Virus record (IMG/VR): IMGVR_UViG_3300025759_000724
Span: 1 to 23,420 of that record
Origin: a virus
Strand: one strand, 5' to 3'
Length of the DNA stretch: 23,420 nucleotides
The notes under the pieces are model-generated. The model saw nothing but the letters and a program-made list of their open reading frames with translations. It made no database searches and was not told where the DNA came from. Positions 5,860 through 16,563 of this stretch are shown here, piece after piece (positions within the stretch are counted from its first letter, which is position 1; each line of letters opens with the position of its first letter). The position numbers and the translations under genes were made by a program.

Positions 5860-8800
5860 ATGTCTGACCTAGACCTTGTGATGCAGGCTTTTAACAAAGC
5901 TCAGGCAGAAGGGAATACCGAAGCGGCTAAAAGTTTTGCCCAAATGGCGCTAGACCTAGACGCACAGTTTTCACTGCCTCCACTTCCAGAACCCGAAGTT
6001 GGCGTAGGTGAAGCGTTTAGTACTGGCTTTGAGCGGGGCGTGGGTCGGCTTGGTTCCACTGTTACGGACATCATCCCTGCGTTAGTGGGAAGTGCCGTAG
6101 GCGCCGAAGATTATGCCCAACGCCAATTCCAAGAGGCTGCCGAGAAAGAGGCAGCTTTACCTGCTCCTGTATTCTCAAGTTACAAAGACGTAGAGGGAGT
6201 AGGGGACTTTACCAAGTTTGTTGCCGAGACTATTGGTGAGCAGATTCCTAACCTTGGTGTAGCACTGGCTACTGCTCTTACAGGTGGTGCAGCTGCTCCT
6301 GTGTTGGGCGCTACCCGTGCAGCGGGACAGTTTGCTGGCGCCGCCTTTGGTTCGTACGCACTTAACGCCCCTGAAATATTCCAGAATATATACGAAGAAA
6401 CCGGAGAGACTGCACCCGGTACAGCGTTGTTGTTTGGCTCCGCTGCTGCAGCACTTGATTCAATCCTTCCTGCTGCTTTAGCTAAAAATATGTCTGCTCC
6501 TGTTAAAGCAGAAGTAACGAAGAAAATACTAGAAAGATCAGGCATGAAGCCAAGTGTGCTTCGTTCGGGCACTGCGGGACTAATTAAAGGTCTTGGCACT
6601 GAAGGTCTTACAGAAGGCGCACAAGAAGCTATCAGTATTGCTGCTGAAAGACTCATCGACGAAAACCCAGATATATTTGGTAGTAAAGAATTTGACCGCA
6701 TCATGGAAAGTGCCGTGCGTGGCGCTGTAGCTGGTGGTGGCTTTGGTACTGTTGGCGGCGGGATCGAAGGCGCTAGAGAAAAGGGCGCTAGAAGGCAACG
6801 GCTAGCTGATCTAGAAGAATCGCGTAAGCTTAGAGATGAAGCCAATAAGCGTATAAAGCTAATGCAGGGGCAGCTAGAGCTGCCGGGCATAGAACCAGTT
6901 AGCCCTCAAGTATTAGAAGCACAAATAAATGCAGAAACTGCACGGGTAGAGGGTGCAGGTGCGGGCGCCCCCGTAGTTTCAAAGATAGCCGCATTAGAAC
7001 TTGCGCGACGCCAAGGACTCGACGTGCCTGCGGCGGGATCATTTGGCTCTCTTAATGCTGAACAAAAGAAAATAGTAGAAGATGTACAAAAGCAAGAAAG
7101 TGAGCGCATTCTGTATGAAGATGCTGCTATAGAAGCGGAGCGTCAGGGCGTTGCGTTTGACACTACTAAATCCATGGGAGAACTTTCTACTAAAGAACTT
7201 GATATACTGGAAACTGTACGGCAACAACGTATAGGTAGGTACGGAAGAGACCAGCAGCGGTTGTTTACTAGAGCAGGAGAACCAGCTCCTACTATAGAAA
7301 GGCAGGCGAAAAAAGCGGAAAAAGAACAGGCTGCTATAGACAAAGCTGCAAAGCAAGCGGCGAAAAAGGCGGAAAAAGAACAGGCTGCTATAGACAAAGC
7401 TGCAAAGCAGGCGGCGGAGAAAGAACGTAAACAACTACAGGAGGCAGAGCAAACTGCATTTTCTTTCGAACCCAATGCAGAAGAACAAGCTATAGCGGAA
7501 GCACAACGTGAAGCTGATATACAAAAAGAAGCTGAAGCTATAATCGAAGCGCGTTATGCGGACACAAAGGATAAAGAGGGCGCTGACTTAAAATTACTAC
7601 GCCCCACTAAGGATGTTATAGCAGCAGAAATAGCAGCTGAAGCAGACATAATACGCAACCGCCTTCCTGCGGAAGAAGCTAGACAAGGTGATATATTTGC
7701 TGGGCTTCCCGGCGAACAAACCCGTGCGCCTAGCGTGGGCAAAGACCTAAATGACTTCTTAAAAGGCCAAGGGTTACCAGTTAACGCTGCCACTAAGAAA
7801 GCATTTGCAGGTCGAGACTTGGCTGTGCCCGAGCAGCGCGCTCAAGTAGTAACTGATCTACGTACCGTAGCAGAGCGCAGTAAGTCCGCTGCTAACATCG
7901 ACGCTATTGATAATGTCATACAGCAACTTGAACCTACCGCCGCTGCACCTGTTGTAGAACCTGCGCCTGTTGCTGAGCCTGCTGTTGAAGCTGCACCTGT
8001 CGCTGAGCCTGCTGTTGAAGCTGCACCTGTCGCTGAGCCTGCTGTTGAACCTGCGCCTGTTGCTGAGCCTGCTGTTGAAGCTGCGCCCGCTCAAGAAACA
8101 ACTACGAAACCTGCTGCGGTAGAGGCAAAGAAAAAACCGACTGAGGATGATATACCGCAACAGGGTGTTCAATTTTTCCCTAATGGTAAGATTACTGACA
8201 TTGGTATTAAACAGCTGGCGATTGCTCATACAAAAAATATGAGAAAGCCTAAAGCGCTGCGCGATTCTGGTATAACCGAAGCGTTTAATTGGTTTATGAA
8301 TGAAGATAACGCCAGCGTTACAGAAGCGAATTTAGCTGCATATCAAAAAGCCGTTGATGCCTTTACAATGAACGCGCCCGTCTACAAAGGTGTAGCGTTT
8401 AGCCCAGAGATAAGTCAGCTTGCAACGCGCGGACGACTCGCACCTTTACTTAACAAATTGATTCCTTCACAGTCTCCAGAAATACAACGCATCTTACGTA
8501 AAATAGCATCTCAAAACCTACGTACTCGCATTGTTGTTGGTGCTACTCCAGAAGGAACAAGCGGTTTTTACGATGCGGCCACTGATGTAATTACGCTGAA
8601 CCCAACTAGCGGTATGAACGAGCATACGGCTTTACATGAAACCGGCCATGCCTCACTAGCGCAGGCGCTCAACGATCCAAACTTACAAATCACTAAAGAT
8701 TTCTTTAAGTTCTTTTCTGATATAAAGACGCAGATGGGCGATGCCTATGGTGGGCAAAACCTACAAGAGTTTGTAGCCGAGCTGGTAAGTAATCCAGAAT

Positions 8801-11676
8801 TCCAAGCGTTACTTAAGCAGATCAAAGCGCCACAGAGTAAGACCATGTGGCAAACGATTATGGACTCGATTGCTAAGTTCTTTGGATTCCGTAAAGAGCA
8901 GAGTGCATATGACAAGGGCCTAGACTTTATAGACAAACTCCTTGATGTGTCTCAGGGTGTAGAGCCTACGCTTACCGATAAACTGTTCTTAGGTACGCCT
9001 AAGATGGCAATGGATGCTACCGCTAAAATACTTACTGGCACTCCAGAGTTTGTGAGTAAGAAAGCCGACAGTTTAGGCAATGCTATATCTAGGATTTCTT
9101 CTGAGGGGGGCGGTGGACTAGCTAGCCGCGCGTTGAGCGCTTTACGCCTGCAAGATATGGCGCGCATGGCAGCGGAAAAGTTCCCTGAACTGAGTAAAAA
9201 ACTCAAAGCCTTACAGGCTGCTATACTAAGCAGGCAGGGTGCCTTAGAGAAAAAGATAAAAGAGATACAAGACAACTACAGGGTATTTGAAAAGATTCAA
9301 AAGAAGTTCCCTCGGGCTGTTGAAACTTTAGGTACGATTGCTTTAAAGGCGCGTAAAGGTGAGTATGACTTGGTTGGCGTGGACCCAGAGTTCGACGTGA
9401 CTAAACTATCGCCGGAGCAAAAAGCGGAGTTTACTGCGTTAGCGAACCAGTTTAGGTCTTTACCTTCTGAAGTGCAGACCATGTATAAAGATATGCGCCA
9501 AGGTTACCGAGATGTGTTCCTTGCGTATAAAAAGTTTGTACTAGATAAGGCAAAGGACGGCAGTCAACGTGCCGAGTTAGAAACTCAGTTTACTAGAAAC
9601 GCACCTGCTATAGGCTACATGCCTGCTTTGCGTTTTGGAGAGTATTTCCTTGAGTATACTGACGTATCTAGTGGGGTTGAAGAACGAGTAGTCACTGCTT
9701 TTGAATCCCCTGCACAACGTTCTAGGTTTATTGCGGAGAATCGCAACATAATTAAAGGCGATCCTCTACCGTTTGATAAGGCTGAGACGGCTACATTTAG
9801 CCCTGAGCGTTTCCCTCCTACCTCTTTTGTAAGCAAGGTTATGGATGTCATCCCACAGGGGCAAAGAGACGATGTGTATCAGGTGCTATTATCTTTGTAC
9901 CCAGAAAGCACTTACATGGATCGCATGAAGCGGTATAAAGGCACGGAAGGCGCATCTATAGATGTAGTGCGTGGGTATGGCGATACTATGCTTAAGGGCG
10001 TGCGCAAAGTAAACGCGCTAGAGTACTTACCCCAAGTGCAAAACGCGATAGATGAAATAATAAAAGAAAGAGGCACTGGGCTTTCACAAGCTATCAGAGA
10101 CGAGATCATCAGGCGCAACAACACGGGGTTCATGCAGAATCCTACTTACGGAAAGATGACTTCGTTCTTCGCCACTAGCGCTTACTCTCTGTTCCTATTA
10201 GGTAACGCTTCGTCTGCGCTTATTAACACGAGTGCTATATTGCTTTTGACTTACCCACGTCTAGCGTCTAGATACGGCTTCAACGAAGCTAATAAAGTGC
10301 TTATGTCTGCTATGCAAGAAGCATTGCCTTCTTTCCGTCCTAAAAACCAGAGACAGGAAAGCTTAATAGAATATAAATGGCAGTCTGATCCCAAGTACAA
10401 AGCTTTGTATGACGGGTTGATGGAGAAAGCTCAGCTAGAACACACACTGTCGCGGGAAATATTAGAGGGTTCTAAGCAGTCAACTGCTGACTTTAATTCT
10501 AACAGCGCGCGGTTTATGAATTTGCTGAGTATGCCGTTTTCTGGAGCGGAAAAATACAGTAGGGCTACTACAGCTATAGCAACATACAACTTAGCAAAAG
10601 CAAACGGAAAAACAGAGGCACAAGCTGTCGAAGAAGCAGTTAACGAAGTTATGGATGTACATACTTCTGGACTTGCAGCGGAAGGCCCTAGCTTAATGCA
10701 GCATCCGGCTGGGCGTGTAATGTTTACGTTTAAGAGTTTTATATGGAACAGTGCTAACGTGATCGGCATGACCATGTATAACTCTGTCGCAAGTGAAGAC
10801 GCGGCAACAAGAAGTATGGCACGTAAGCAAGTGCTTGGTATCTACGCAGTAAGTGCAGCGCTTGGTGGTATAAACGGTCTACCTTTCTTTGGAGCTGCCG
10901 CTACTTTTGCCAACATACTGGAAGCTTTAAATCCGTTTGACGACGACGATGAACCTTTCAACGCTAAGGAAGAAGTACGCGCCGTTACTAATGACTTTTT
11001 GTTTAAAGGCCCGCTCAACTATTTAACGAACCTAGAAATATCTAACCGTGTTGGCCTCGCTAACGGTATGTTATTCCGAGAAGACCCATACAGCGTAGAA
11101 GAGCGAGGCTACTTAATGACTGCTCTAATGCAGGCTACTGGGCCGGTGGGTAGCTATGCGTTTAACTTCGAGAACGCCATGGGCTTATTAAGAGAAGGAG
11201 AATACCTACGGTTTACCGAAGCTATGTCTCCAAGCGCCGTGCGTAACATACTTAAAAGTGCGCGTTACATTAAAGAAGGAGCAAGGACAAGAAGCGGTGA
11301 AGAAATAGATACGGATATAAACGCATATAATTTATTTATGCAGGTGTTAGGCTTTAGCCCCGCGGACATATCCAATGCTTATGAAAACCGTTCTATGGCG
11401 TTAAATTATCAAGCTAAAGTCCGTGCCAGAAGAAAAAATATTCTTGATAAATACTACATAGGCAAAGAAAACGGCGACGTAGAACTTATGCTAGAAGCTA
11501 GAGAAGAACTGCAAGACCTGCGTATGCAGTATCCGGGTATAGCAAGTAACGATACTTTAGCCCGTTCTTACAGAAGTAAAAAGGCCTATGAAAAAGATTT
11601 AATCCTCGGTCTTCGTTTCGATAAAGGACTGAAAGATAGAGTAACCGAGCGCTATTTAGAAGACTTTATAGCCTAA
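5860..11676 (+). CDS. Giant internal virion / large polyvalent-type protein with HExxH motif
   Basis: 1938 aa, ATG 15 nt after the previous stop, with a weak RBS (AGG). Seen in order: an N-terminal helical region with Gly/Ala hydrophobic stretches (about 121-180); a TEGAQEA segment; Lys/Glu/Ala helices with a duplicated 18-residue unit (484-519); a Pro/Ala/Val/Glu linker (about 698-744); a metallopeptidase-like region with HETGH at 926-930 and possible third ligands E970 or E974 in LQEFVAELV; long helices; and a C-terminal part with hydrophobic patches near 1430-1470 and 1655-1690 and an acidic DDDD cluster. From family knowledge, multi-domain 'large polyvalent proteins' of phages carry protease-like domains and are packaged and ejected with DNA. 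The position after an SLT protein resembles T7 gp15/gp16. Protease activity and ejection are inferred. Confidence 0.8.
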   Translation: MSDLDLVMQAFNKAQAEGNTEAAKSFAQMALDLDAQFSLPPLPEPEVGVGEAFSTGFERGVGRLGSTVTDIIPALVGSAVGAEDYAQRQFQEAAEKEAALPAPVFSSYKDVEGVGDFTKFVAETIGEQIPNLGVALATALTGGAAAPVLGATRAAGQFAGAAFGSYALNAPEIFQNIYEETGETAPGTALLFGSAAAALDSILPAALAKNMSAPVKAEVTKKILERSGMKPSVLRSGTAGLIKGLGTEGLTEGAQEAISIAAERLIDENPDIFGSKEFDRIMESAVRGAVAGGGFGTVGGGIEGAREKGARRQRLADLEESRKLRDEANKRIKLMQGQLELPGIEPVSPQVLEAQINAETARVEGAGAGAPVVSKIAALELARRQGLDVPAAGSFGSLNAEQKKIVEDVQKQESERILYEDAAIEAERQGVAFDTTKSMGELSTKELDILETVRQQRIGRYGRDQQRLFTRAGEPAPTIERQAKKAEKEQAAIDKAAKQAAKKAEKEQAAIDKAAKQAAEKERKQLQEAEQTAFSFEPNAEEQAIAEAQREADIQKEAEAIIEARYADTKDKEGADLKLLRPTKDVIAAEIAAEADIIRNRLPAEEARQGDIFAGLPGEQTRAPSVGKDLNDFLKGQGLPVNAATKKAFAGRDLAVPEQRAQVVTDLRTVAERSKSAANIDAIDNVIQQLEPTAAAPVVEPAPVAEPAVEAAPVAEPAVEAAPVAEPAVEPAPVAEPAVEAAPAQETTTKPAAVEAKKKPTEDDIPQQGVQFFPNGKITDIGIKQLAIAHTKNMRKPKALRDSGITEAFNWFMNEDNASVTEANLAAYQKAVDAFTMNAPVYKGVAFSPEISQLATRGRLAPLLNKLIPSQSPEIQRILRKIASQNLRTRIVVGATPEGTSGFYDAATDVITLNPTSGMNEHTALHETGHASLAQALNDPNLQITKDFFKFFSDIKTQMGDAYGGQNLQEFVAELVSNPEFQALLKQIKAPQSKTMWQTIMDSIAKFFGFRKEQSAYDKGLDFIDKLLDVSQGVEPTLTDKLFLGTPKMAMDATAKILTGTPEFVSKKADSLGNAISRISSEGGGGLASRALSALRLQDMARMAAEKFPELSKKLKALQAAILSRQGALEKKIKEIQDNYRVFEKIQKKFPRAVETLGTIALKARKGEYDLVGVDPEFDVTKLSPEQKAEFTALANQFRSLPSEVQTMYKDMRQGYRDVFLAYKKFVLDKAKDGSQRAELETQFTRNAPAIGYMPALRFGEYFLEYTDVSSGVEERVVTAFESPAQRSRFIAENRNIIKGDPLPFDKAETATFSPERFPPTSFVSKVMDVIPQGQRDDVYQVLLSLYPESTYMDRMKRYKGTEGASIDVVRGYGDTMLKGVRKVNALEYLPQVQNAIDEIIKERGTGLSQAIRDEIIRRNNTGFMQNPTYGKMTSFFATSAYSLFLLGNASSALINTSAILLLTYPRLASRYGFNEANKVLMSAMQEALPSFRPKNQRQESLIEYKWQSDPKYKALYDGLMEKAQLEHTLSREILEGSKQSTADFNSNSARFMNLLSMPFSGAEKYSRATTAIATYNLAKANGKTEAQAVEEAVNEVMDVHTSGLAAEGPSLMQHPAGRVMFTFKSFIWNSANVIGMTMYNSVASEDAATRSMARKQVLGIYAVSAALGGINGLPFFGAAATFANILEALNPFDDDDEPFNAKEEVRAVTNDFLFKGPLNYLTNLEISNRVGLANGMLFREDPYSVEERGYLMTALMQATGPVGSYAFNFENAMGLLREGEYLRFTEAMSPSAVRNILKSARYIKEGARTRSGEEIDTDINAYNLFMQVLGFSPADISNAYENRSMALNYQAKVRARRKNILDKYYIGKENGDVELMLEAREELQDLRMQYPGIASNDTLARSYRSKKAYEKDLILGLRFDKGLKDRVTERYLEDFIA
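7309..7416 (+). repeat. Two 54-bp tandem repeats encoding a charged helix
   Basis: Copies at 7309-7362 and 7363-7416 encode KKAEKEQAAIDKAAKQAA twice. They are nearly identical in DNA, which indicates a recent duplication. Both lie in the helical N-terminal third of the 1938-aa protein. Confidence 0.9.
7951..8090 (+). repeat. 30-bp tandem repeats encoding an A/P/V/E linker
   Basis: Units at 7981-8010 and 8011-8040 are identical. Variants lie at 7951-7980 and 8041-8070, with a partial copy at 8071-8090. Each codes for a 10-residue AVEAAPVAEP-like unit. This is a proline-rich, probably extended and acidic linker between the helical N-terminal region and the HExxH region. Confidence 0.9.
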
Positions 11677-11867: not shown

Positions 11868-14634
11868 TGTCTGCTTCCTTAGCTATAGCGTTGGTGCCAA
11901 TAAACTCTGGGTGAGAAGAATCAAACCACACACAGCGGGTAGCACTAGTCGTCATAGCCATACCCTTACCCATGTTTTTGTTATGCGTCCTTATAACACA
12001 GCCTTTATCTTTTAGCTCCCGTATTGTGGAGTCGTAGTTAACCTGCCTCTTGTTTAAGAAATCTTTAAGCCTACCCGAAGCTATGTAGATAATATTCGCA
12101 TCTGGTTCTTCCCTGATATACAAAGCTCCACGCGGTTCCAAGTAAGGACGCTTAGTCTTACCCGACCGTGCATCTGCTGCGGCGTCAATAGACAAAATGT
12201 TTTGCGTATGCTCGTTAATAAACTCACCGATAAGTGCAAAGGAGTCGTTTACTGGAGCTATAGTAGTCTCACGCAAGCTCTTAATTTCCGGTGCAGCCCT
12301 CTGATATATGCGCTTCATATCAAGCGTGACTATGCCTGCTTCTACCGCAAGTAGTCCTCCTGCTATGTTACAAGCCATCGCTGCTGACCAGTTACGCTCA
12401 CGTTGAGTTAAGCTAAGCTCCTTATCTATCTTTGCCTGTGTGTTTAATACTCTGTTTTTAGCGTGTTCAGGGTTAGCCATGATGTACTGCACGAACGGTT
12501 CTATGGCGTGTCCGAAGTTCTGGCTTAGTTGGTGGTCGAACATTGCCTTACCTTCCGCAGTTGAGATTACATTTACGTCTTGGTAGTCGATGAAAAACTC
12601 AAGTATCCGCATCAGCTCCCCATCAGGCGAGTTCTTTGTGTTCATTAGCTTCTGGTAGAAAGATGCGTTCGAAGATGACAGGGTTATGTTACGCCACGTA
12701 ATCTCATTCTTACGGTTAGCGTTAATGTGGAAGTGCGCCTTCTCCTTGCCGCGCCCTTGTGATGCAGCATAAGCAAACTTGCCTATGTCCTTGTCTTCAA
12801 TGTTTGTCATTTCGTCTATCGTATTTACGATATTGTTTAGCGTGCCTAGTTTGTTTATCCGACCTGTAACCGTATCGTCTGGCGTGCCTAGTAGCATCTC
12901 GGGATCACCGGCTATGCTGTTTGCCATACGCAGGATTGTAGTTTTGCCTGTACCTGCTTTGGGGTGCACCAAGTTAATTATGGCGCCTTTCTGCCCTGTA
13001 AAATTGAGCAGTATTGAACCGAACCCGCTGAGTGCAGCGAACGCGTGCATTTCCAACCCCGGTCGATTGTACAGCTCGAATACTTCTCTCCACTTCTCGT
13101 AAGACCCGCGCGGCTCTAAGTAGTCGCTATAGGTCGCTGTTACGGAGGAAGGCGGCGAGTGGTATACACCGTCTACCCGTATCTCTCTTTCACCCACGAT
13201 AAAAGCAGAGTGGTTATCTGCCCAGCCAAATTGAACGCGCATCTTATCCGCCTTATTCTCTGTTGATAGCGCCTTAATAGAGTCGATTACATACTTATGC
13301 AAGTAGGGAGTAGTCTTTTTGTCTGCTAAAACGCCGTTTTTCGCCAGTACTTTAGTTAGCTCTCTTGAGTCTAACTGTTCGTTTTTTATAGTAAATCTAC
13401 GTTCTCCGTCTTTTGGAAGGTGTACTACAGCAATCGCAACGTCTCCGTCTGTAGGGTCAGTCATGCGTTGCTCTATATAAAAGTCGTACTCGTACACAAA
13501 CTGAGCGCCTTCTCCGTCCTCTGTCTGCATATAGATACCGCCGTTCTCTCCCCACACGTAGGGGGGTCGGTATTTAACACCTTGCTTACTAGCTTTTGCC
13601 TTCTTGAGGGTCTGCCCAAGGACGATGGGGCTTTTGATCTTGCCTTTGTGAGGACAGCCATTGCAACCTTCTGGGTTGTTAGCTTCAAACTCTGCACAGG
13701 AATGCGGGCCTTTTATGCCCTTCATCTTTCTTTCAGTTGCTTCGGGGCTGTAGTCTGCGTGCCCCTGCGAGATTATGGTAGCTGCCTTAGTGCTGTCTTG
13801 GCAGAACTTAGCTATAGACAACGCATCGAACCAACGCGGTTCAGCGAGAGTTGCCCTGTTCCTTATGCAGTCGTGTAGCTGCAAGCACCCATCAGCACGG
13901 GTGACTATCTTCTTGAATACACTTGTATAGTTTTGGTTTAACAGTTCTTGTAGTGGGTTTTTCTCAAGCGGTCGCTTGTCTACTTCCTCTGCGTCAGGGT
14001 CAACTCCGAGTATTTCACGAAGCTCGTCTGGGTCAATGCGATTAGTCGAACCTCTTAATACTGTTACTGGAGCAGGAGGATCGTATTTTTGATTGAAGGT
14101 CCCCGGCACCCGTAAAACACGGGACGCGTCGAAGACACGTTGGTCAGCGTAAAACTCTTGTGTCACACAGATTTGCTTAAGGCGTTTGCATATAGGTAGC
14201 CATTTAGCCCGAGGTACTTCTTCTGTCAGTGCCCAGTATGCGTGTATTCCGCCCCCAGAATCTATTACAGCAGGGAAGGGTAGACCTACGGTCTCACAAA
14301 ACTTTTTAAGTGCTAGCTGCGCATCTTTCTTAGTTTCGTATCCTTGAGGTAAACCAGTAGACGATTCTATGCTACTTGCTTTACCTTCCCCGCAGTCTAT
14401 ATCTACCCAAATAGACTGTAATGATTCTACGTTTGTTGCTTCTCTGCTTCCGGCTTTTTCCAATTTACCGAGCATGAAGTAGACATCCTTACCTTGCTTT
14501 ACGAACTTCTCAGCAAGGACATCTACCTGCGCTCTATCGTCAGTAAATTCAGAGAAAAAACCTGAGCCTGCGCCAACCACACAGTAATAGCCGCCCGTGG
14601 GGACAACGTAATCTATGAGGTTGAAATCAGTCAT
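11827..14634 (-). CDS. Fused primase-helicase (AEP-type primase + P-loop helicase)
   Basis: 935 aa. The N-terminal part carries archaeo-eukaryotic-type primase signatures: DID (78-80) in SIWVDIDCGEG, the H131 region SGGGIHAYWAL, and SRVLRVPGTFNQK (171-183). A Cys/His region follows (C313, C324, C327, with nearby C250, C256, C278 and H311), probably zinc-binding. The C-terminal half has Walker A HPKAGTGKTT (557-566), Walker B-like NTIDE ending at D607-E608, and SSSNASF as a sensor-like segment, as in superfamily 3/DUF927-like phage helicases. It should make primers and unwind the fork for the phage DNA polymerase encoded upstream. The ATG overlaps the stop of the HTH gene (ATGA), indicating translational coupling. 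The exact helicase family is less sure than the two-domain layout. Confidence 0.88.
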   Translation of the reverse strand: MTDFNLIDYVVPTGGYYCVVGAGSGFFSEFTDDRAQVDVLAEKFVKQGKDVYFMLGKLEKAGSREATNVESLQSIWVDIDCGEGKASSIESSTGLPQGYETKKDAQLALKKFCETVGLPFPAVIDSGGGIHAYWALTEEVPRAKWLPICKRLKQICVTQEFYADQRVFDASRVLRVPGTFNQKYDPPAPVTVLRGSTNRIDPDELREILGVDPDAEEVDKRPLEKNPLQELLNQNYTSVFKKIVTRADGCLQLHDCIRNRATLAEPRWFDALSIAKFCQDSTKAATIISQGHADYSPEATERKMKGIKGPHSCAEFEANNPEGCNGCPHKGKIKSPIVLGQTLKKAKASKQGVKYRPPYVWGENGGIYMQTEDGEGAQFVYEYDFYIEQRMTDPTDGDVAIAVVHLPKDGERRFTIKNEQLDSRELTKVLAKNGVLADKKTTPYLHKYVIDSIKALSTENKADKMRVQFGWADNHSAFIVGEREIRVDGVYHSPPSSVTATYSDYLEPRGSYEKWREVFELYNRPGLEMHAFAALSGFGSILLNFTGQKGAIINLVHPKAGTGKTTILRMANSIAGDPEMLLGTPDDTVTGRINKLGTLNNIVNTIDEMTNIEDKDIGKFAYAASQGRGKEKAHFHINANRKNEITWRNITLSSSNASFYQKLMNTKNSPDGELMRILEFFIDYQDVNVISTAEGKAMFDHQLSQNFGHAIEPFVQYIMANPEHAKNRVLNTQAKIDKELSLTQRERNWSAAMACNIAGGLLAVEAGIVTLDMKRIYQRAAPEIKSLRETTIAPVNDSFALIGEFINEHTQNILSIDAAADARSGKTKRPYLEPRGALYIREEPDANIIYIASGRLKDFLNKRQVNYDSTIRELKDKGCVIRTHNKNMGKGMAMTTSATRCVWFDSSHPEFIGTNAIAKEADNASGESELPDQLD

Positions 14635-14864
14635 TTTTTATACTCTATTATTAGATTTTTAATAGTGTCTTTCAGCTCGTTGCTTGGCTCATGTATGCCC
14701 GTAAACCAGTTGTAAACTGCTTGCCGACTAACCCCAAGCCGGTGTGCGACTTCGGCAACGGGCACTTCTTTCGAAATGCACGCGCGACCGAGTTTTACAC
14801 CTAGCATGGAGCCGTCAGCCTGTTTATTTAGACTACTGAGCCGCTTTGTGTAGCCATAGCTCAT
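14631..14864 (-). CDS. Small helix-turn-helix DNA-binding protein
   Basis: 77 aa from ATG at 14864-14862, chosen because it forms a TAATG overlap with the SSB stop; an in-frame ATG 18 nt upstream (14882) would overlap the SSB gene more. Seen: a Cro/CI-like helix-turn-helix in VAEVAHRLGVSRQAVYNWFTG, with the second helix SRQAVYNW as the recognition helix, then a short C-terminal helix. It could regulate this operon or act in replication initiation. The ATGA overlap with the primase gene ties its translation to primase. Confidence 0.8.
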   Translation of the reverse strand: MSYGYTKRLSSLNKQADGSMLGVKLGRACISKEVPVAEVAHRLGVSRQAVYNWFTGIHEPSNELKDTIKNLIIEYKK

Positions 14865-15607
14865 TAGTCTTCGTCGCCCCATATGTCAATGATGTCAGCC
14901 ATTTCTTCGTCGTCCGCCGGTGCAGCTTCCTTCTTTTTCTTGCGCTTCACAGGCTCAGCAACTTCTTCCTCATCCTCGTCGAACAGATCAGGTTGCTTAG
15001 TTATCTGGCCTTCAGCTTCAAACATATCGTCATTGTCTTCTGCGGCAGAGAACAGGCTTTTAGCTTGGTCAGCCGTGAACCCGTCAGCTTCCTCGAAAGG
15101 CGAAGCAGGTTTGTAAGGCAGATACTTGAGCACCTGTACACCGCGTAAGCGGAGAGAAACACCAGTAGTCGCCATTTTGAACGGGATCATTTCGACCGCT
15201 ATATTTACTGTACTACCAGTAGTTAGCATAAAGTCGCTGCCAAGGCGGTCGTTCTTTGCGTCAAACTGCGCAGGCGGCTCGGTCGCATTGCCACTGTATG
15301 CTGCTTTGAGACTAGTCTTACCAACAAACGTACCGTCTTCTTGCTTCTTGAAAGGCATCTCTAGCTTAGCAGGCCAAGACTTATCGCGGCCTTTAGCGTT
15401 GGTGTAAGCATCCTGCATGATTCCATAAAGCGCTTTGGCTTGCGCAGAAGTCATGCTGAAGTCTAGCTCGTAACGGGCACCGTCTTCGGTAGGGTCGCAA
15501 GGTACGCTCTTACCGTTCTTACCTGCCTTGTTATCGAAGCGGTAAGGTTTGTCCAGACGAGGGTAACGTGCTTCAACGCCTTTGATTATGTGAGATGGGT
15601 TAGCCAT
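14864..15607 (-). CDS. Internal-start SSB (gp2.5/DUF2815-like) inside the fused ORF
   Basis: 247 aa if translation starts at ATG 15607-15605. AGAGGA (15615-15620 on the minus strand) lies 7 nt upstream, an optimal Shine-Dalgarno. The product starts MANPSHIIKG and matches in size the stand-alone SSBs of this family, acidic tail included. This is probably the main ssDNA-binding protein of the phage, with the 438-aa form a longer isoform. The downstream HTH gene is coupled by TAATG. Confidence 0.75.
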   Translation of the reverse strand: MANPSHIIKGVEARYPRLDKPYRFDNKAGKNGKSVPCDPTEDGARYELDFSMTSAQAKALYGIMQDAYTNAKGRDKSWPAKLEMPFKKQEDGTFVGKTSLKAAYSGNATEPPAQFDAKNDRLGSDFMLTTGSTVNIAVEMIPFKMATTGVSLRLRGVQVLKYLPYKPASPFEEADGFTADQAKSLFSAAEDNDDMFEAEGQITKQPDLFDEDEEEVAEPVKRKKKKEAAPADDEEMADIIDIWGDED

Positions 15608-16180
15608 AAATATTTCCTCTATGTTTCCTGTAAAAGGATTTGGTGATTGCGAAGCGGCTTCTATTTGCTGCCTCGCGGTTGCAAGCTCTTCCTCGGCTAA
15701 AGGTCGAACTGGTTTAAAATATATCCGGTACGAGTTGTACTGCTCGACTAGATATAATTCGGTTAAAATTTCTTCTGCTTCTTCTTGGTTTTTCTCTAAG
15801 TATTCAATGTACTTATAAAAGCCAAGCTTGTTAGTTTCTTTGGCAAACAGACTGCTAGCACTTATGCGCACCTCGCAGACTATGCCGTCTTCTGGTAGTA
15901 ACACCTTGATGATCTGGTAGAACTTACATGGGGCGCTACGATTAAAGCCGCCGCTCTTAATGCTTCGAGTGCAGTCCATACACCGCCTAGCTTGCACCTT
16001 GTCATCAGGCACGTTGTCGTCGGGGTGCGTACAGCCAGTAGACCAACACACTAAACCTGTGCTGTCGTAGTAGCCTCTAGATAACTCTCCTCTATCAACT
16101 ATCATCACCTGTAGAGAATCTAGGGGGGAGTTGGTCCGTGGGTGTAAGAAACACCCATTTTCATGTCTTAGTCGAATCAT
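14864..16180 (-). CDS. In-frame fusion: Cys-rich phage protein + gp2.5/DUF2815-like SSB
   Basis: 438 aa. Residues 1-191 carry five cysteines (C45, C50, C67, C70, C85) in a pattern that could bind zinc, then a helical Glu-rich part. Residues 192-438 look like the DUF2815/T7 gp2.5 single-stranded DNA-binding family: an N-terminal MANPSHIIKGVEARYPR, a beta-rich core with RYELDFSM and GSTVNIAVEMIPFK, and a long acidic tail with DEDEEE and ending in GDED. Acidic tails of this family contact polymerase and helicase. In other phages these are usually separate neighbouring genes. Here no stop divides them, although residue 192 has its own strong RBS. The start overlaps the 128-aa gene (ATGA). Confidence 0.8.
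   Translation of the reverse strand: MIRLRHENGCFLHPRTNSPLDSLQVMIVDRGELSRGYYDSTGLVCWSTGCTHPDDNVPDDKVQARRCMDCTRSIKSGGFNRSAPCKFYQIIKVLLPEDGIVCEVRISASSLFAKETNKLGFYKYIEYLEKNQEEAEEILTELYLVEQYNSYRIYFKPVRPLAEEELATARQQIEAASQSPNPFTGNIEEIFMANPSHIIKGVEARYPRLDKPYRFDNKAGKNGKSVPCDPTEDGARYELDFSMTSAQAKALYGIMQDAYTNAKGRDKSWPAKLEMPFKKQEDGTFVGKTSLKAAYSGNATEPPAQFDAKNDRLGSDFMLTTGSTVNIAVEMIPFKMATTGVSLRLRGVQVLKYLPYKPASPFEEADGFTADQAKSLFSAAEDNDDMFEAEGQITKQPDLFDEDEEEVAEPVKRKKKKEAAPADDEEMADIIDIWGDED
15615..15620 (-). promoter_or_regulatory. Strong internal Shine-Dalgarno for SSB
   Basis: AGAGGA on the minus strand, 7 nt before the internal ATG. It sits within codons for IEE of the fused ORF, so it is both coding and a translation signal. 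Confidence 0.75.
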
Positions 16181-16563
16181 TTTTTACGCGGCTTTAAAAC
16201 AGAAACAATATACTTACGGTTGACTTGTAAACCCGCAGGCATAAGGTCAGGGTTGTCCTCAAGAAACTGCTTCATGGCTAGGCCAGAGATTCGTTTCTCA
16301 AGTAGGTGGAAAGCGTCGTGCTCCTTGAGGAAGTCGTACATCCTTTCCCAGTCGCTAGTCCAGTAGTGAGACTGTACTCTACGGCTTACTGTGCCAGAGG
16401 GTGTCCTTAGACTATCGAGGTCTTGCTCTTCGCAGAGCGCAAGCAGCTTTTCTACTACCGTTTCTTGCTGCTTTTTTATTGTCTTTATCTCGTCTTCTTT
16501 CTCTTTAATAGCGTTCCGCATCTTTATATAGATTTTGGTTAGCTTGTCTGCTGAGTCTTTCAT
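16177..16563 (-). CDS. Conserved phage protein of unknown function (128 aa)
   Basis: 128 aa, with a very strong RBS (AGGAGG, 4 nt before the ATG), placed 53 nt after the SNF2 stop: one of the few true gaps in the operon. Residues about 8-48 form a charged Lys/Glu coiled coil. The rest holds TPSGTVSRR, YWTSDWERMYDF, LLEKRI and MKQFLEDNP..MPAGL. This order of motifs is familiar from phage replication clusters next to SSB and helicase genes, but no biochemical function is known to me. The strong RBS suggests high expression. Its stop overlaps the SSB-fusion start as ATGA. Confidence 0.75.
   Translation of the reverse strand: MKDSADKLTKIYIKMRNAIKEKEDEIKTIKKQQETVVEKLLALCEEQDLDSLRTPSGTVSRRVQSHYWTSDWERMYDFLKEHDAFHLLEKRISGLAMKQFLEDNPDLMPAGLQVNRKYIVSVLKPRKK

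Follow-up and report, generated by a model that had tools for sequence, protein, structure and literature searches.

A Cys4 protein and a gp2.5-like SSB in one phage reading frame, with an internal start that looks selected

The fusion reading frame and its two halves

The window, by which we mean the whole 23,420-nt stretch of IMG/VR virus record IMGVR_UViG_3300025759_000724 that was analysed, carries on its minus strand a 438-codon reading frame (14864..16180) that joins a cysteine-rich N-terminal half to a gp2.5-like single-stranded DNA-binding protein (SSB). The N-domain (residues 1-178; 15647..16180) is followed by a linker (residues 179-191; 15608..15646) and then by an ATG at codon 192 (Met192; 15605..15607), which opens a frame of 247 aa (14864..15607), all on the minus strand. 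The initial annotation had proposed that this one ORF can give both a 438-aa fusion and a 247-aa SSB, and the stop-free minus-strand translation agrees with it. The Shine-Dalgarno (SD) sequence AGAGGA that it placed 7 nt before the internal ATG is likewise seen at exactly that spacing on the minus strand (15615-15620, then ATG at 15607-15605).

The start of the long frame overlaps the stop of the preceding gene in an ATGA (16177..16180, minus strand) and has almost no SD pairing (-0.1 kcal/mol). That preceding gene (16177..16563, minus strand) is phrog_13900 / DUF7307-like by profile match. On the other side, a gene for a small HTH protein of 83 aa (14631-14882, minus strand) overlaps the end of the SSB by 19 nt and the start of a primase/helicase gene by 4 nt. 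Farther away, the window encodes a 1938-aa protein (5860-11676) whose C-terminal third is about 25% identical to DarB-like / PLxRFG proteins of other phages, and an ORF cut by the window start (2-472) that contains tandem repeats of about 20 aa (GDPCDDPAYAASRPGECGVIS), one Cys-bearing unit each.

The C-half matches phrog_112 (E 1e-14) and, by profile, T7 gp2.5 (1je5, E 8e-11), and its AlphaFold (AF2) model matches the 1je5 fold (E 5e-9, TM-score 0.59-0.64 depending on the target). Against Pfam SBB_T7 it scores 19-21 bits, under the family cutoff of 27. By profile and modelled OB fold, the C-half is a gp2.5-like SSB with predicted ssDNA binding. Its disordered tail (residues 366-438; 14867..15085, minus strand), common to the long and short forms, contains a KRKKKK block and then an acidic end with a conserved Trp (W434), closing on GDED and not on the aromatic residue expected of the gp2.5 family. 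Its acidity recalls the C-terminal tail of T7 gp2.5; however, the T7 protein is the single-domain product of its own gene, whereas the window SSB has the N-terminal fusion and the KRKKKK block.

For the N-half the only match is the functionally unassigned family phrog_27714, which was hit by 12 of the 13 N-domains tested (best E 1e-10; E 2e-4 for the window). No Pfam family scored above cutoff and no credible sequence relative was found in the PDB; MAT1, at E 0.06 in the PDB sequence search, was taken as a chance match. Seven cysteines are present in the window (Cys 10, 45, 50, 67, 70, 85, and 102), and four of them (C45, C67, C70, and C85) are invariant in all 56 aligned fused proteins and in all 44 rows of the alignment of fused and split forms together. 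This invariance in every aligned relative supports the earlier suggestion of a Cys-rich half with a putative zinc domain, and the candidate zinc site spans C45-C85 (15926..16048, minus strand).

We modelled the N-domain together with the linker (AF2, residues 1-191; pLDDT 86, pTM 0.78). Around the internal start, at residues 185-193, the predicted pLDDT is below 50, as if the chain were disordered there. A Foldseek search with the N-domain model placed phiC31 gp3 first (PDB 9teh, 9teh_I; probability 1.00, E 2.8e-3, but TM-score only 0.39), followed weakly by OB-fold proteins, among them BRCA2, RPA, and MCM; the same fold occurs in several named phage proteins whose function is unassigned. phiC31 gp3 is a recombination directionality factor (RDF) whose gene lies near exonuclease, primase, and polymerase genes. 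We rejected homology between the N-half and gp3, since the fold match has no sequence support (hhalign probability 0.1%, no HMMER hit) and a TM-score of 0.39 is too low for such a claim.

Free-standing homologues of the N-half were recovered from cultured phages by profile search: Xp15 gp40, KPP25 gp70, Effie 400, RHph_TM3_14A 075, and Rollin WNV50621. These phrog_27714 proteins, such as those of Pseudomonas phage KPP25 (which also has the Cys pattern) and Xanthomonas phage Xp15, stand alone where the window has a fusion, and in the cultured phages examined they lie close to a gene for an SNF2-type helicase, one of phrog_13900 type, or both, which is also the setting in the window. The phrog_13900 / DUF7307-like neighbour is common to the window, Xp15, and KPP25; it is named “minor head protein,” yet in all three it lies among replication genes, and the name may be wrong. 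No gp2.5-like match was found among the neighbouring proteins tested around the phrog_27714 genes of cultured phages. The longer N-proteins of the Rhizobium phage RHph_TM3_14A (409 aa) and the Pseudomonas phage Rollin (488 aa) were considered as carriers of a second SSB domain, and none was found in them. Several free-standing N-proteins finish with a short tail, acidic or tipped with Trp (FAGWDD, DDIANKW; also DSLWDD in locus L114), that is reminiscent of SSB tips. Based on the weak fold match and the gene context, we read the N-domain with moderate confidence as a nucleic-acid-binding protein of zinc type that belongs to the replication cluster and may be an SSB in its own right.

Fused and split relatives

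Relatives were gathered by scans of IMG/VR followed by a profile scan of the loci obtained; the locus counts for fused and split forms are among the matches listed and carry no information on true frequencies. Both parts share one frame in at least 125 IMG/VR loci with at least 76 distinct sequences, which form at least 34 clusters below 85% identity and belong to uncultured, mostly aquatic phages. In at least 55 IMG/VR loci (at least 46 distinct), the N-protein and the SSB are encoded by two genes side by side; in nearly all of these the spacing ranges from an overlap of 14 nt to a gap of 23 nt, and the largest gap is 80 nt. Cultured Roseobacter and Pelagibacter phages have a free-standing SSB that starts at, or a few residues from, the position of the internal Met. 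A search of bacterial genome contigs found no such fusion in bacterial genomes or prophages, and with the terms tried we found no paper on an SSB fusion of this kind.

The split loci are the relatives with an intervening stop that the initial annotation had proposed to look for. The existence of such relatives would also fit an assembly or sequencing error that joined two genes in the window. However, the split forms are other lineages on the SSB tree, and the stop-free fusions, at least 76 of them distinct, come from many assemblies and share this frame even where identity falls to about 43%. We therefore regard an assembly error or a missed frameshift as ruled out.

On the SSB tree (73 rows), fused and split forms are separated by one change, a count that by itself gives no direction. 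Rooting on pelagiphage SSBs places the split state at the base, on weakly supported branches, which points to one fusion event. Thus, the fusion is likely the derived state, as judged from these sequences.

The ends of the N-proteins suggest how the two genes could have been joined. Free N-proteins carry SPFxxVDGF near their stop in 43 of 46 split loci, whereas the full motif is present at the end of the N-half in none of the 34 fused clusters, and in 26 of these an NPF-like remnant is left a short way ahead of the internal ATG. With the full motif gone and a remnant left, the ancestor would have been a pair of neighbouring genes in a phage replication operon, a Cys4 N-protein followed by a gp2.5-like SSB, and the N-gene would have been shortened at its tail end, its stop codon included. 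A single reading frame would have resulted, and the ribosome-binding site (RBS) of the SSB would have turned into the end of the N-coding sequence. The SSB has a similar motif in 46/46 split loci and 32/34 fused clusters (SPFEEADGF in the window, residues 360-368, about 15077-15103). The resemblance between the tail motifs of the free N-protein (split loci L135-L189) and the SSB may mean that both dock on one and the same replication partner.

Signs of selection on the internal start

A Met at the SSB start is kept in all 76 distinct fused sequences among the matches listed. In the 56 aligned fused proteins, Met192 is the only fully conserved Met, although the linker around it is variable. Across the 34 clusters, SD-anti-SD pairing at the internal start averages -6.07 kcal/mol, compared with -3.75 kcal/mol for synonymous recodings (combined p 0.002) and -2.03 kcal/mol for other in-frame Mets (p 2e-15); both p-values are optimistic because related sequences were treated as independent. 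Pairing reaches -5.4 kcal/mol or stronger in 27 clusters and is weak (-2.5 to -3.3 kcal/mol) in the remaining 7. Openness of the internal start is significantly greater than average across the 34 clusters; in the window itself no such excess is seen (0.49 vs 0.53).

Codon choice at the junction follows the SD sequence. The dipeptide KE is written AAGGAG in 9 of 11 junctions vs 4 of 78 occurrences elsewhere in the same genes (p 6e-8, kinship ignored), and EE is written GAGGAA in 12 of 13 vs 49 of 197 (p 2e-6, again ignoring kinship). Where the junction residues differ (KEQ, EEI, EEL), all retain an SD-like sequence. In the clade of the window, the eight codons that precede the ATG have the lowest pS/pN of all 431 windows, with pS 0.14 vs 0.57 gene-wide and pN 0.18 vs 0.12, and the linker as a whole combines free amino acids with constrained synonymous sites. 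In the KEQ clade and in a weak-SD clade, the lowest pS of the gene likewise falls in windows on or immediately before the junction. A mixed set of six divergent sequences gave no sign of synonymous constraint there.

Could these signals be kept for other reasons? Were the fusion the sole functional product, the internal ATG and the purine-rich stretch could be ancestral relics, given that the ancestral SSB gene carried them, or linker residues retained for the sake of the protein, and the seven clusters with weak SDs would fit. However, we consider this unlikely: the linker amino acids vary freely while the synonymous sites do not, the Met is never lost, and different residues preserve an SD-like sequence through biased codons. 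Synonymous constraint alone names no cause, and another overlapping element, such as a regulatory RNA, an operator, or a translational pause, could also produce it; in the clade of the window, fusion-ORF codons 153-166 (about 15683-15724) and 12-19 (about 16124-16147) likewise show low synonymous change. The constraint at the junction, however, abuts the ATG, its conserved letters are the SD letters, and the Met is invariant, which makes such an element very improbable as the explanation. Overall, the internal start looks selected as a start inside coding sequence.

Two probable products from one frame

The N-domain is under strong purifying selection (dN/dS 0.06-0.15), which indicates that it is translated. 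With no stop before the SSB, ribosomes that translate it would run on, so that the long form should also be made. Its start has a mean SD energy of -1.3 kcal/mol, with rough values for some rows of the weak-SD clade, whose start was chosen by a simple rule. The overlap of this start with the preceding stop takes the form ATGA in 19 of the 34 clusters and GTGA in several more, and the long form is probably translated in coupling with the gene before it. The near absence of an SD there would suit an upstream frame that is decayed or untranslated, leaving only the short SSB, but the dN/dS of the N-domain, its invariant cysteines, and the ATGA coupling make this reading scarcely credible.

Because the upstream start is almost without an SD and usually overlaps the preceding stop, the short SSB should predominate; low-level coupled initiation of the long form with strong initiation of the short SSB is the pattern that these features lead us to expect. 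The fixed ratio suggested in the initial annotation would be a further supposition, as the two starts point to an excess of the short SSB. The proposal of two SSB isoforms from one frame gains strong comparative support from the synonymous constraint over the internal RBS, the invariant start, and the purifying selection on the long frame, and one frame very probably yields both. We put at roughly 80% the probability of the account as a whole, namely a fused operon pair in which the long N-SSB is made from a weak, coupled start and the short SSB from the retained internal RBS. The long form would start at the ATGA overlap and the original short SSB at the internal RBS, and both would accumulate, with the short form in excess. 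The N-domain would then bind nucleic acid and help to place the long form, and the short form would coat ssDNA in bulk.

T7 gene 4A/4B provides a precedent: 63- and 56-kDa primase-helicase forms are made from one frame through an in-frame internal start, and the zinc domain is present only on the long form. The arrangement predicted here is alike in that one frame would give two replication proteins, with a conserved internal start, a selected RBS, and a putative zinc domain only on the long one. It differs in that the protein is an SSB, not a primase-helicase, and non-homologous, and in that the split two-gene state survives in relatives. The mechanism class is therefore known and the protein pair is different. 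The two forms of T7 gene 4 and its zinc motif are named in the titles of references that PMC6163395 cites.

A more specific and decidedly tentative idea is that the N-domain is a zinc-containing ssDNA-binding module that serves as the main SSB of phages such as KPP25 and Xp15. In the fused clade, an RPA-like two-module SSB and a one-module SSB might then come from the same frame and be co-assembled on one DNA, with the two starts determining their proportions.

The locus offers an unusually clear natural record of an operon pair that became a fusion while its second gene was retained as a separate product, made up of the split relatives, a fusion that probably happened once, and an RBS kept by selection while the surrounding amino acids drift. 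It also suggests a role in ssDNA handling for phrog_27714, a functionally unassigned family of phage proteins. Annotating the 438-aa ORF alone would hide the probable major SSB, the 247-aa form.
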